A stretch of DNA of 52,036 nucleotides from Clostridia bacterium (GTDB taxonomy: Bacteria; Bacillota; DSM-521; Neomoorellales; Neomoorellaceae), in assembly GCA_030445865.1 (NCBI GenBank), contig JASUSV010000009.1, positions 1-52,036 on the forward strand, written 5' to 3'. A program made the position numbers and the translations under genes. A model generated the notes under the pieces. The model had not been told where the DNA came from, ran no database searches, and saw only the letters and a list, made by a program, of their open reading frames with translations. Of the stretch, positions 3,971 to 52,036 are shown piece by piece (within the stretch, counting starts at the first letter, position 1; every line of letters begins with the position of its first letter).

Positions 3971-5083
3971 ATGAGCCTTACCCAGCGTTTCAAAACTTTC
4001 GCTTATGAACAGGGAATTGCCGCCATCGGTATAGCCCCGGCTGTATCCCTGGAGCGGGGGATCCGGACTTTAATCTCCAGGGAAAGGCGGGGCTTTTTCA
4101 CTCCTTTTGTGCGCGGTACACCAGTAGAACGCTGCACTCCTCTAAGTCTATTTCCCGGAGCCCGTTCTTTGATCGTCATTGCTTTAAGTTATTCGGCCAA
4201 AACCCCCTCCTGGCCTCCTCCCGGATTTGATGAAGGGATAATCTGCCGTAGTGCGAGGGGCTTGGATTACCATTACATTTTAACCGAGAAGCTAAAATGT
4301 CTGGCTGATTTTTTAAGACGCGAAGGAGGTTGCCGGGAGACCTATATTCAGGTAGATAACGGGCCGCTTTTGGAGCGCGAAGCAGCTTATCAGGCGGGGG
4401 TAGGATACTACGGTGAAAACTGTTCGATAATTATACCTACCTATGGCTCCTGGGTAGTATTAGGCATTCTTTTAGTAGACGTAGCTTTAGAATACGATCA
4501 TCCCCTTGAGCAGGGGTGCAGGGGCTGTCGCCGTTGCCTGGAGGCATGCCCAACAGGAGCCCTGGTAGAACCTTATGTCCTGAACCCCGCCCTTTGCCTT
4601 TCTTATCTCACCCAGATGCGCGGATTTATACCCCAGGAAGCGCGACCCCATTTTGCCAACCGCCTTTTCGGCTGCGATGTCTGCCAGGAAGTTTGCCCGG
4701 AAAATAATGAGATAAAGCAGGCCGGGGAAAATTTTGGTGCCCGACGGGAAGCCGCCTTCCCCAAATTGGGGGAAATATTGAAACTTGACAACCGTAGTTT
4801 TAGGCGATTATTCGGTAATACGGCAGCCGGCTGGCGCGGCAAGGGCATTTTACAGCGAAATGCCGCTCTGGCGATGGGCAACAGCGGCGACCGGAGTTGG
4901 GTACCCCTTTTGGCGGGTGCCCTGAAATCGCCTTCGGCAGTCTTGCGGGGCCATACGGCTTGGGCTTTAGGCCGGCTGGGTGGAAAGGCGGCCCGCAATT
5001 TCTTAGAGAGGGCTTTGATCTGGGAAGTCGATTCTAAGGTAAAAGGAGAAATAAAAAGAGCCCTGGACAGGGCCTTAGCTTAA
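3971..5083 (+). CDS. queG: Epoxyqueuosine reductase QueG
   Basis: 370-residue cobalamin-dependent iron-sulfur enzyme catalysing the last step of queuosine synthesis, reducing epoxyqueuosine in tRNA. Two [4Fe-4S] motifs are visible: C183-C186-C189-C193 and C235-C238-C242 with C209 as probable partner. D130 in YIQVDNGPLLER is the likely general acid. The last 80 residues form a HEAT-like repeat pair (ALAMGNSGDRSWVPLLAGAL, then WALGRLGGKAA) expected to bind tRNA. The ATG at 3971 has only a weak ribosome site. No other queuosine gene is in the window. Confidence 0.93.
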   Translation: MSLTQRFKTFAYEQGIAAIGIAPAVSLERGIRTLISRERRGFFTPFVRGTPVERCTPLSLFPGARSLIVIALSYSAKTPSWPPPGFDEGIICRSARGLDYHYILTEKLKCLADFLRREGGCRETYIQVDNGPLLEREAAYQAGVGYYGENCSIIIPTYGSWVVLGILLVDVALEYDHPLEQGCRGCRRCLEACPTGALVEPYVLNPALCLSYLTQMRGFIPQEARPHFANRLFGCDVCQEVCPENNEIKQAGENFGARREAAFPKLGEILKLDNRSFRRLFGNTAAGWRGKGILQRNAALAMGNSGDRSWVPLLAGALKSPSAVLRGHTAWALGRLGGKAARNFLERALIWEVDSKVKGEIKRALDRALA

Positions 5084-21240: not shown

Positions 21241-21314
21241 GCGGGTGTAGCTCAATGGCAGAGCCCCAGCCTTCCAAGCTGGTTGTGTGGGTTCGATTCC
21301 CATCACCCGCTCCA
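21241..21314 (+). tRNA. tRNA-Gly(UCC)
   Basis: Acceptor GCGGGTG/CACCCGC, anticodon stem CCAGC/GCTGG with loop CTTCCAA (anticodon TCC), a T-arm with GGTTCGATT, and an encoded CCA. First gene of the cluster. Confidence 0.97.
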
Positions 21315-21337
21315 ATAATGTTATAATAATGTCACAG

Positions 21338-21414
21338 GCGCCTGTAGCTCAGCCGGACAGAGCAGCGGCCTTCTAAGCCGCGGGCCGCAGGTTCGAATCC
21401 TGCCAGGCGCGCCA
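21338..21414 (+). tRNA. tRNA-Arg(UCU)
   Basis: Acceptor GCGCCTG/CAGGCGC, anticodon stem GCGGC/GCCGC with loop CTTCTAA (anticodon TCT), encoded CCA. The short spacer from tRNA-Gly contains another TATAAT. Confidence 0.97.
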
Positions 21415-21441
21415 TTGCGCCATTATCTTAAAGAAAAGCGT

Positions 21442-21519
21442 GGTGGGTGTAGCTCAGTTGGTTAGAGCACCAGGTTGTGGCCCTGGGGGTCGTGGGTTCG
21501 AGTCCCATCTCCCACCCCA
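21442..21519 (+). tRNA. tRNA-His(GUG)
   Basis: The anticodon loop TTGTGGC (anticodon GTG) is closed by CCAGG/CCTGG. The extra G at 21442 can pair with C73, the hallmark G-1 of histidine tRNA. CCA is encoded. Confidence 0.96.
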
Positions 21520-21528
21520 AAATTTTGC

Positions 21529-21604
21529 TGGGGCGTAGCCAAGCGGTAAGGCAACGGACTTTGGATCCGTCATTTCGTTGGTTCGAATCCAGCCGCCCCA
21601 GCCA
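21529..21604 (+). tRNA. tRNA-Gln(UUG)
   Basis: Acceptor TGGGGCG/CGCCCCA, anticodon stem ACGGA/TCCGT with loop CTTTGGA (anticodon TTG), G discriminator, encoded CCA. Confidence 0.96.
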
Positions 21605-21612
21605 GTATACGT

Positions 21613-21688
21613 GGGCCATTAGCTCAGGAGGTAGAGCACCTGACTTTTAATCAGGGTGTCGGAGGTTCGAGTCCTCCATGGCTCACCA
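21613..21688 (+). tRNA. tRNA-Lys(UUU)
   Basis: Acceptor GGGCCAT/ATGGCTC with one G-T pair, anticodon stem CCTGA/TCAGG with loop CTTTTAA (anticodon TTT), A discriminator, encoded CCA. Confidence 0.96.
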
Positions 21689-21705
21689 TTTTTTTATTTT
21701 ATATT

Positions 21706-21790
21706 GCGGGCGTGGCGGAATGGCAGACGCGCCAGACTTAGGATCTGGTGGGGAACACCCGTGGAGGTTCAAATCCTCTCGCCCGCACCA
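21706..21790 (+). tRNA. tRNA-Leu(UAG)
   Basis: Long variable arm (GGGGAACACCCG region) as expected for leucine, acceptor GCGGGCG/CGCCCGC, anticodon stem CCAGA/TCTGG with loop CTTAGGA (anticodon TAG), encoded CCA. Confidence 0.96.
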
Positions 21791-47663: not shown

Positions 47664-49529
47664 TTGTCTCATTTGAGGGAATATATACTGAAGAACATCC
47701 TGGACCAAGTAGAAAAACCAGCCCGCTACCTGGGCACCGAATGGAATAGCGTTCATAAAGACTGGGATAGCGCTCAGGTACGTATGGCTTTTGTTTTCCC
47801 CGACCTTTATGAAGTCGGCATGTCGCATCTAGGGCTGGCCATCCTTTACGGCCTTATTAACGCTGAGGAAGACCTGCTTTTAGAGCGGGTTTTTGCCCCC
47901 GGCCTGGATATGGAAGCCAGGCTAAGGGAGGAAGGGATCCCTCTTTTTAGCCTGGAATCTTACCGGCCCCTGAAGGATTTCGATGTCATCGGTTTTACGC
48001 TCCAGTATGAAATGACCTATACTACCGTTTTAAATATACTTGCGCTGGCCGGTATACCCTTAAGGGCAGAAAATAGAGAGGCTACGGCGCCGCTGGTCAT
48101 TGGAGGCGGGCCCTGCGCTGCCAACCCGGAACCGCTGGCCCCTTTTTTTGACTGCTTCCTCCTGGGCGACGGCGAAGAACTCCTGCCCGAATTTTTGCGC
48201 CTGATCGGGAAACTTAAAAAAGGTCCCCGGAATAGGGCCGACCGCCAGGAGGTTTTAAGGGAGGCGGTTAAGCTACCAGGTGTTTACGTCCCTTCCTTTT
48301 ACGAGGTGACTTACCGGCCTGATGGAGTTATAGATAATATACGGCCGCAGGGGCCGGGAGTACCGGAGAAAGTAAAGAAGCGAGTGGTGGCCGACCTGGA
48401 AAAGGCCTTTTTCCCCACGCGGCCCATCGTACCTTTTATCGAAGCGGTGCACGACCGCATCATGTTGGAGGTTATGCGGGGCTGCACACGCGGTTGCCGT
48501 TTCTGCCAGGCCGGGATCCTCTACCGGCCGGTGCGGGAACGGGGGGTAGAAGTTCTTTTACGCCAGGCGGCGGAGATTTTTAAGGCTACCGGCCACGAGG
48601 AAATAGCACTTACTTCTTTAAGCACGGCCGATTATTCTTGCGTGGAAGAGCTGGCCCAGAAGCTGGCCCGGGAATATGCCGATAAGGGTGTAAGCCTTTC
48701 CCTGCCTTCCCTCCGGGTGGATGCCTTCAGCGTGCGTCTGGCAGAGGCCATCCAGAAAGTGCGCAAATCTACCCTGACTTTTGCACCCGAAGCCGGCACC
48801 CAGCGGTTGCGGGACGTAATCAACAAGGGCGTCACGGAAGAAGACCTTTTTGCCGCGGTTACGGCAGCTTTTGAAGCCGGCTGGCGCAGTGTAAAACTCT
48901 ATTTTATGCTGGGGCTGCCCACCGAAACTTATGCCGACCTTGACGGGATTGCCATCCTGGCCAAGGAAGTTCTCTTCAGGGGACGCCGGCTGGCCAAAAA
49001 CGGGCAAAAAATAAGGGTAACGGTCAGCGCTTCTTCTTTTGTACCCAAAGCCCATACGGCTTTTCAATGGGAACCGCAGGAGGATATTGAAGAGCTTAAA
49101 GCCAAGCAAAATTACCTGCGCAGCCGCCTCGCGGGCCGCGGTCTGGAATTCAACTGGCACCAGGCGGAAGTTAGTTTTATTGAAGCCGTGCTCTCCAGAG
49201 GCGACCGCCGCCTGGCTGATGTTTTAGAAGCGGCGTGGCGGCTGGGGGCGAAGTTCGACGGCTGGACGGAACATTTCAATTATAATGTCTGGCAGGAAGC
49301 CTTTAAATCTAAAGGGATAGATCCTGCTTTTTATGCCAACCGCCGCCGGGATTATGCTGAAATAATGCCCTGGGATCACCTGGATTTCGGCGTAACTAAA
49401 GGGTTCTTGCAACGTGAACACCGTTTGGCTTTATCAGGAGTCCAGACCGCCGACTGCCGTTCAGGACGCTGCCATGGATGCGGCGTCTGCCCCGGCCTGG
49501 GAGTAGCGCTGGATCTGAAGAAAGCCTGA
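47664..49529 (+). CDS. Radical SAM protein with B12-binding-like N-terminus (TIGR03960 family)
   Basis: 621 residues. The N-terminal part (about 1-230) resembles a cobalamin-binding fold (VFPDLYEVGMSHLG, then LVIGGGPCAANPEP). The radical SAM core follows with C274-x3-C278-x2-C281 (CTRGCRFCQ). The C-terminus has cysteine-rich CRSGRCHGCGVCPGLG. Members are nearly always beside a DUF2344 gene and near rng and rplU; the joint substrate is unknown, with a ribosome or RNA link suspected from context. TTG start. Here the partner gene is separated by an unusual 167-base spacer. Confidence 0.9.
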   Translation: MSHLREYILKNILDQVEKPARYLGTEWNSVHKDWDSAQVRMAFVFPDLYEVGMSHLGLAILYGLINAEEDLLLERVFAPGLDMEARLREEGIPLFSLESYRPLKDFDVIGFTLQYEMTYTTVLNILALAGIPLRAENREATAPLVIGGGPCAANPEPLAPFFDCFLLGDGEELLPEFLRLIGKLKKGPRNRADRQEVLREAVKLPGVYVPSFYEVTYRPDGVIDNIRPQGPGVPEKVKKRVVADLEKAFFPTRPIVPFIEAVHDRIMLEVMRGCTRGCRFCQAGILYRPVRERGVEVLLRQAAEIFKATGHEEIALTSLSTADYSCVEELAQKLAREYADKGVSLSLPSLRVDAFSVRLAEAIQKVRKSTLTFAPEAGTQRLRDVINKGVTEEDLFAAVTAAFEAGWRSVKLYFMLGLPTETYADLDGIAILAKEVLFRGRRLAKNGQKIRVTVSASSFVPKAHTAFQWEPQEDIEELKAKQNYLRSRLAGRGLEFNWHQAEVSFIEAVLSRGDRRLADVLEAAWRLGAKFDGWTEHFNYNVWQEAFKSKGIDPAFYANRRRDYAEIMPWDHLDFGVTKGFLQREHRLALSGVQTADCRSGRCHGCGVCPGLGVALDLKKA

Positions 49530-49696
49530 AAGTTGCTTGGTTTCCTTACAGAAAGCGTTGCCCAGCGCCGGGAGCTGAGGAGGCGAGGGAGCCATACGGA
49601 TCGCTGGTAAGCCCTAAGACACCGGCGCCAGCGTGGCATGGGGAACGTTTCGGAAGTATCCGAATTAAGTTAGGTGGCGTGGGAGTTGATTTAAGG
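49530..49696 (+). ncRNA. Highly structured non-coding spacer, candidate RNA element
   Basis: Between the radical SAM gene and its DUF2344 partner. Nested pairing is seen: GAAA-(G)-CGTT-(G)-CCC (49551-49563) with GGGGAACGTTTC (49640-49651); GCGCCGG (49565-49571) with CCGGCGC (49622-49628); AGGG (49586-49589) with CCCT (49612-49615); CCA (49592-49594) with TGG (49605-49607). A separate perfect hairpin TTCGGA-AGTA-TCCGAA (49650-49665) shares two bases with the outer stem. The spacer has no ribosome-site-led gene and no T-box, known riboswitch core or intron domain V that I can recognise. Confidence 0.45.
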
Positions 49697-50362
49697 TTGC
49701 GCCTTCGTCTTCAATATACCAAACTAGGTCCTGCTCGCTTTTTAGGCCACCTCGACTTAATGCGGCTTTTCCAGCGGGCGGCCAGGCGGGCGGATCTGCC
49801 TTTAGCTTATAGCGCCGGCTTTAACCCCCATCCAAAACTGGCCCTGGGCCCGGCCCTGCCGTTAGGCATGGAAAGCGAAGCCGAATACCTCGACCTGGAA
49901 TGTACCCAGGAAATACCGGCCCGGGAAGTGCAAGGGCGCCTTCAGGAGCAGCTTCCGGAGGGCATCAGCGTACGAAAGGCAAAAGTTATAGATTCGCAAA
50001 CCGAATCCCTTGCGGCTGCCATAAAATGCGCCGCCTACAGAGCGGAGTTGCCGCCGGATGTCCCGAAGAATAAAGTCGAAGAAGCTATTAGCCGCCTGTC
50101 CTCCCAGGAAAAAGTATTGGTTAAACGTAAAGATAAAGAAGTTGACATTCGGCAGGGTATTTATGATCTGAAGATCGAAGGCGACGGCGGCGTTTTTTTA
50201 TATATGCTTGTGGCCTGCAGCCAACGTTTAAACGTTCGTCCTACCGAAGTAATGGAGGCCTTGGGCCTGAGAGCTACAAAGCCTTATGTGTGCCGCAGCG
50301 GCCTTTTTATTAGTTGCAGTCCACCTTTGGTAACTCCTTTGAACGAAATTTTTGGAAGGTAG
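49697..50362 (+). CDS. DUF2344 (TIGR03936) partner of the radical SAM protein
   Basis: About 221 residues of the DUF2344 family, seen as a separate gene or as the C-terminal part of the radical SAM protein. Typical start RLRLQYTKLGPARFLGHLDLM (shortened), then LPLAYSAGFNPHPKLALG. The frame is open back to 49478, but the family start and GGGAG at 49681-49685 favour TTG 49697; GTG 49679 is an alternative. Function unknown. It ends 2 bases before rng. Confidence 0.85.
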   Translation: MRLRLQYTKLGPARFLGHLDLMRLFQRAARRADLPLAYSAGFNPHPKLALGPALPLGMESEAEYLDLECTQEIPAREVQGRLQEQLPEGISVRKAKVIDSQTESLAAAIKCAAYRAELPPDVPKNKVEEAISRLSSQEKVLVKRKDKEVDIRQGIYDLKIEGDGGVFLYMLVACSQRLNVRPTEVMEALGLRATKPYVCRSGLFISCSPPLVTPLNEIFGR

Positions 50363-51866: not shown

Positions 51867-52036
51867 GTGCTGGCGACTGGGTCATCCCCAGTTTTCGCTG
51901 GGGGAGGCCTGCTTTGGCTTGAAAGCGAGCGACTAAACCCGAGCGGTAGCCAAACTTAACGAGGCCGAAAGCGGAGGCGGACCCGAGGGCATGAGACCTT
52001 CGGCCGGCAACTGAGACAGGAGGTCGAATTTGCCGG
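51867..52036 (+). mobile_element. Probable group II intron, 5' part, cut by the window end
   Basis: From GTGCT at 51867 (close to the GTGYG intron start) the sequence is GC-rich, non-coding and strongly folded. Features are a CCCCAG/CTGGGG hairpin (51886-51902), a CCGAAAGCGG stem-loop (51964-51973), and CCGGCAA (52004-52010) pairing perfectly with TTGCCGG (52030-52036). The wording AACTTAACGAGGCCGAAAGCGG and GAGACAGGAGGTCGAATT (given in parts) recalls domain I of bacterial group II introns. No reverse-transcriptase gene is inside the window; it would lie beyond the end. An L21 leader is the main alternative, given the rng-rplU context. Confidence 0.55.

Follow-up and report, generated by a model that had tools for sequence, protein, structure and literature searches.

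A probable MITE remnant between two normally tight genes of a Clostridia bacterium, from a family placed just upstream of Shine-Dalgarno sites

Most bacterial MITEs are shorter than 200 bp, rich in A+T and bounded by TA ends (PMC2229807). The Correia elements, which carry promoters, are located upstream of genes (PMC10969869), and the site-specificity of Tn7 has been described as well (PMC10969869). The element studied here, from a Clostridia bacterium, belongs to a family of small, apparently non-coding transposons which shares features with each of these systems and lies at a nearly constant position before genes. It was found in the window, by which we mean the whole stretch of 52,036 nucleotides that was analysed; elsewhere in the window, at 21241-21787, six tRNA genes are clustered (Rfam).

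The starting point is a junction between two genes and its immediate surroundings:

47664..49529, + strand: TIGR03960 B12-binding radical SAM gene, the upstream neighbour (NCBIfam, E 1.4e-257)
49530..49696, + strand: spacer, an insertion missing from the tight junction of relatives (sequence and comparison with relatives)
49681..49685, + strand: GGGAG, the likely Shine-Dalgarno (SD) site for TTG 49697, 36 nt downstream of the right end of the element (read from the sequence)
49697..50362, + strand: TIGR03936 (DUF2344) gene, the downstream neighbour (NCBIfam, E 1.2e-63)

An RNase E/G-family gene comes next. Alignment with relatives places the start of the TIGR03936 gene at TTG 49697, with an in-frame GTG at 49679 as the alternative, and the junction gaps, first counted to the initial residue of the GTG-start reading, were recounted 18 nt further on, to the residue that corresponds to TTG 49697. 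On this basis the two genes overlap by 1-23 nt in 15 of the 19 relatives and are separated by 8-17 nt in 3, while the remaining one (L178) has an insertion of its own; that is, they overlap or lie at most 17 nt apart in 18 of the 19, versus 167 nt in the window. The claim of the initial annotation that a 167-base spacer splits a normally tight gene pair is thereby borne out, and since the tight or overlapping junctions of the relatives have no such spacer, the block 49530-49696 is an insertion in this genome. The insertion at the L178 junction (genome G015) is a different one; its GAAGAATGAAAACAGCGG is similar to how the elements of genus g7 look at their left end.

The right part of the spacer, 49587-49660, has about 40 matches in its own genome, at 73-85% identity, and many in G018, the genome of another family in the same order; the search for further copies proposed in the initial annotation thus reveals a dispersed repeat. 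Altogether this genome holds about 60 sites (62 right ends scanned, solo ends included), the copies being related to one another and their counts not counts of independent events. Intact copies, from the fetched loci, are about 255 bp long with the consensus GGTGC[T/A]TCCGAAAGAAGTATGAAAATGCCGGGGATGCTGGCG ... CGCCAGCGCCCCGGCATGGGGAATGTTTCGGAAGCATC, and carry imperfect 13-bp terminal inverted repeats, GGTGCTTCCGAAA...TTTCGGAAGCATC. Among 36 copies the length varies between 246 and 260 bp; the values do not fall on multiples of three, and no common reading frame is kept. Over the same number of copies the flanks are 75% identical in the 8-bp register, against 29% for shuffled pairs, and identity drops to 49% at 7 bp and 37% at 9 bp. 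Because of the imperfect terminal inverted repeats and the clear 8-bp target duplications we class the family as a MITE, here called type 1. Short copies of about 97 bp lack an inner part which has GCTGGCG on both sides, and solo right ends exist too. No description of the family was found in a search of the open-licence literature, and a right-end pattern scan of GTDB r220 genomes and IMG/VR (own and near genomes excluded; the pattern is too strict for G018) returned no match. Two further arrangements were seen among the copies. Some type-1 elements of G018 (L098, L099) hold a nested insertion with ends cccagcactcaac / gttgagtgctggg, and at locus L049 a T-box leader (4321-4598; Rfam, E 1.2e-21) is followed directly by a type-1 element (4622-4875) and then by an aroF-like gene (by reading), the MITE lying between the T-box terminator and the gene and the T-box match being a separate neighbouring leader.

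Comparison of the spacer with these copies delimits what is present in the window:

49565..49660, + strand: probable remnant of the right-hand part of a type-1 MITE (own-genome matches and profile alignment; left border approximate, 49587-49660 secure)
49648..49660, + strand: right terminal inverted repeat TTTCGGAAGTATC (consensus TTTCGGAAGCATC; comparison with family copies)
49661..49668, + strand: expected site of the right-hand 8-bp target duplication, CGAATTAA (position from the family, and sequence)

The right terminus and roughly 95 bases inward are thus retained, and no left partner of the target duplication, left terminus or left part of the core described below can be recognised; upstream of about 49560 the profile alignment enters coding sequence and is not trusted. 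An old type-1 copy would have inserted between two genes whose ends overlap in relatives; its left end, the target duplication and the left part of the core would have disappeared later. Taken as a whole, a decayed half of a non-autonomous MITE, in sense placement before an SD site and stemming from an old insertion at the junction, is the best explanation of the spacer, and we hold it to be very probable. Apart from keeping the two genes apart, what is left of the element probably has little effect.

The pairings named in the initial annotation can all be read in the sequence: GCGCCGG/CCGGCGC (49565-49571/49622-49628) is perfect, GAAAGCGTTGCCC/GGGGAACGTTTC (49551-49563/49640-49651) has bulges, and AGGG/CCCT and TTCGG/CCGAA pair at 49586-49589/49612-49615 and 49649-49653/49660-49664. 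These pairings, together with the position of the spacer in the leader, might suggest a functional cis-acting leader RNA (attenuator or riboswitch-like) of the TIGR03936-rng unit. The RNA fold of the segment is, however, no better than chance, its MFE being -55.5 where dinucleotide shuffles average -54.1 (z = -0.34) and 70 of 200 shuffles being at least as stable. Rfam gives no match for the spacer and, at relaxed thresholds, nothing but chance matches for the element, nor do its covariance models match the full copies or the core-bearing loci. Dozens of unrelated genes are moreover preceded by the same sequence, the relatives lack the spacer and the element has no terminator-like site, so that a leader RNA of this kind is scarcely credible. 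Among the three options that had been offered for the spacer, a cis-regulatory RNA and a processed small RNA find no support in the window copy, whose fold is at chance level and whose left part of the conserved core is gone. The remnant of an inserted mobile element is the one that stands, on the strength of some 40 dispersed copies, of terminal inverted repeats and 8-bp duplications on intact copies, and of relatives free of the spacer.

The placement of the type-1 copies follows a clear rule. A co-oriented gene is faced by 52 of the 57 right ends in this genome, the gene calls being simple and some of the exceptions being short genes missed by the caller. A start codon with an SD site lies 19-40 nt downstream of 49 of the 62 right ends (solo ends included), with a median of 25, and the same placement is expected for 4.4% of random intergenic strand-positions; in G018, 18 of 25 right ends have a start 20-28 nt downstream. 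The P values computed for the comparison with random positions take the copies to be independent and are generous in this respect. The element is followed by the 8-bp A/T-rich duplication, about 3 nt and then the G-rich SD. Whether by insertion or by survival, nearly all type-1 copies point their right end at a gene and stop about 25 nt ahead of its start codon. The downstream proteins are diverse, including atpD, rpmF, trpS, hemB, relA, purD and clpC (read from the N-termini alone), and as hemB is the sole clear case of a tagged gene shared by this genome and G018, the sites have largely been filled independently.

We are inclined to regard this placement as mainly a property of insertion, in which the transposition complex would settle, always in one polarity, at the upstream edge of the SD region. 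Our reason is that, of the 14 copies whose duplications are perfect, 12 are already found 22-27 nt ahead of a called start; their positions are mild evidence for targeting over selection. Tagged and untagged genes have the same SD composition, so that a motif in the target DNA is not directly indicated. Possible, though doubtful, is that insertion is random and that only sense copies just upstream of an SD survive, the hairpin being harmless or helpful there; it may, for example, keep the SD unpaired or stabilise the mRNA, and the copies would then be co-opted leader elements. The diversity of the tagged genes, many of them apparently essential, the constant distance of the solo right ends and the apparently independent tagging of hemB in both genomes all fit such survival, as does the finding that the orientation of ERIC elements matters for their effects on mRNA stability (PMC2229807). 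Against this, a copy in antisense or in a 3' region would be expected to be neutral, yet hardly any such copies are seen, and the youngest copies already follow the placement rule.

The distance between the right end and the start codon would also suit a promoter, and the elements could be imagined as mobile promoters whose right end drives the gene behind, as Correia elements do. We consider this very unlikely, as the searches of the element for promoters (sigma-70-type) and terminators found none, the sigma-70 pattern, the only one searched, being absent from the window copy and from one intact copy. As to its mobiliser, the type-1 MITE would presumably be moved in trans by a DDE transposase. 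No autonomous IS with type-1 ends is present in the assembled genome, which is weak evidence because the assembly breaks at many such repeats. An ISL3 transposase was considered and rejected, since the ends of the ISL3 elements found in relatives are different and this genome has no ISL3 transposase. Several contigs of this genome start or stop inside these MITE repeats, which probably explains the fragmented assembly.

The window itself ends within another MITE of this genome:

51877..52036, + strand: second MITE type (ends CTGGGTTATCCCC...), cut by the contig end (96% identical to the type-2 consensus)
51973-52036, + strand: core in the second MITE (core model 52.7 bits, E 1.5e-10)

This type 2, present in this genome and in G005, has ends CTGAGTTATCCCC and 9-bp duplications such as ATTATTCAT. 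It shares with type 1 the core and the long-hairpin build, and differs from it in its termini, in the length of its duplication and in having no fixed distance to start codons, the latter in a small sample. Its ends presumably resemble those of IS10/IS50-type IS4 elements. Another core-bearing form, found in more than one genus (L134, L135, L136, L216), starts with GACCCTCATRCCGCTAA and partly ends with ...AGGGTAGAA. A type-2 element in a record labelled as a Klebsiella plasmid (L219, NZ_CP061968.1) was set aside as what looks like an assembly or contamination artefact; the record is 27 kb long and unannotated, and the element lies within an inverted duplication.

Within the same taxonomic order, the middle of the full-length type-1 element is common to type 2 and to the forms in genus g7. 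The alignment of this 80-nt core fits a stem and two arms, the second with an inner helix, with conserved loops, and contains 45 cells with both-sided changes, where shuffles give 14.1 and slid structures no more than 4. With 36 distinct core sequences both-sided changes occur at 19 of the 21 pairs and in 129 cells, against 31.6 when shuffled and at most 22 when slid; this alignment was built with the covariance model and leans towards it, the slid controls still being far below. Judged from these alignments, the pairing of the core is conserved with compensatory changes, and the covariation is very strong. Across the phylum, the covariance model detects the core in 46 of 267 genera (64 of 398 genomes), several copies per genome being common among the matches listed; a scan of IMG/VR (own and near genomes excluded) gave no match.

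Whether the core acts as RNA is a separate matter. In an early count G-U far outnumbered A-C, and the type-1 copies folded better on the sense strand. Neither was taken as proof of RNA, because the structure came from RNA energies, which are biased towards G-U, and because the copies are close relatives of one another; once the core is fixed, G-U and A-C no longer differ. As G-U cells are rare (7, versus 5 for A-C, with no G-U excess) and the difference between sense and antisense folds of distant core copies is within the control range, the core is not claimed as RNA. The core pairs might also be maintained by a DNA hairpin or through templated correction from one palindrome arm to the other. 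A broader proposal, which at present we judge unlikely, would be a superfamily of leader-homing mobile elements spread over many genera of the phylum, built round a conserved folded core (RNA or ssDNA) that aids its own mobility, with one branch inserting genome-wide at the upstream edges of SD sites with fixed polarity.

A MITE that tags dozens of genes at one position and with one polarity, even inside seemingly essential operons, amounts to an unusual natural experiment which bears on insertion targeting and on the effects of leaders on translation. Likewise, a covarying core found in MITEs with different ends and in at least 46 genera, with no Rfam entry, is a concrete and testable structured element.

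Compared with the known systems, the type-1 MITE is like the bacterial MITEs RUP, ERIC/IRU, Correia and YPAL in being short, apparently non-coding and foldable, with terminal inverted repeats, target duplications and many intergenic copies (PMC2229807, PMC10969869). It is unlike most of them in its length of about 255 bp, its G+C richness and its 8-bp duplications, and also in its constant position and sense orientation ahead of the SD and its conserved three-way-junction core. Like type 1, the Correia elements of Neisseria are found predominantly immediately upstream of genes (PMC10969869), but they carry promoters, whereas no sigma-70-type promoter was found in the type-1 MITE. A single likeness links the family with Tn7 (attTn7), namely the fixed distance and polarity relative to a landmark of the gene. 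Tn7 insertion has a fixed polarity; in contrast to Tn7 and its one site, the type-1 MITE occupies dozens, and these lie upstream of genes.
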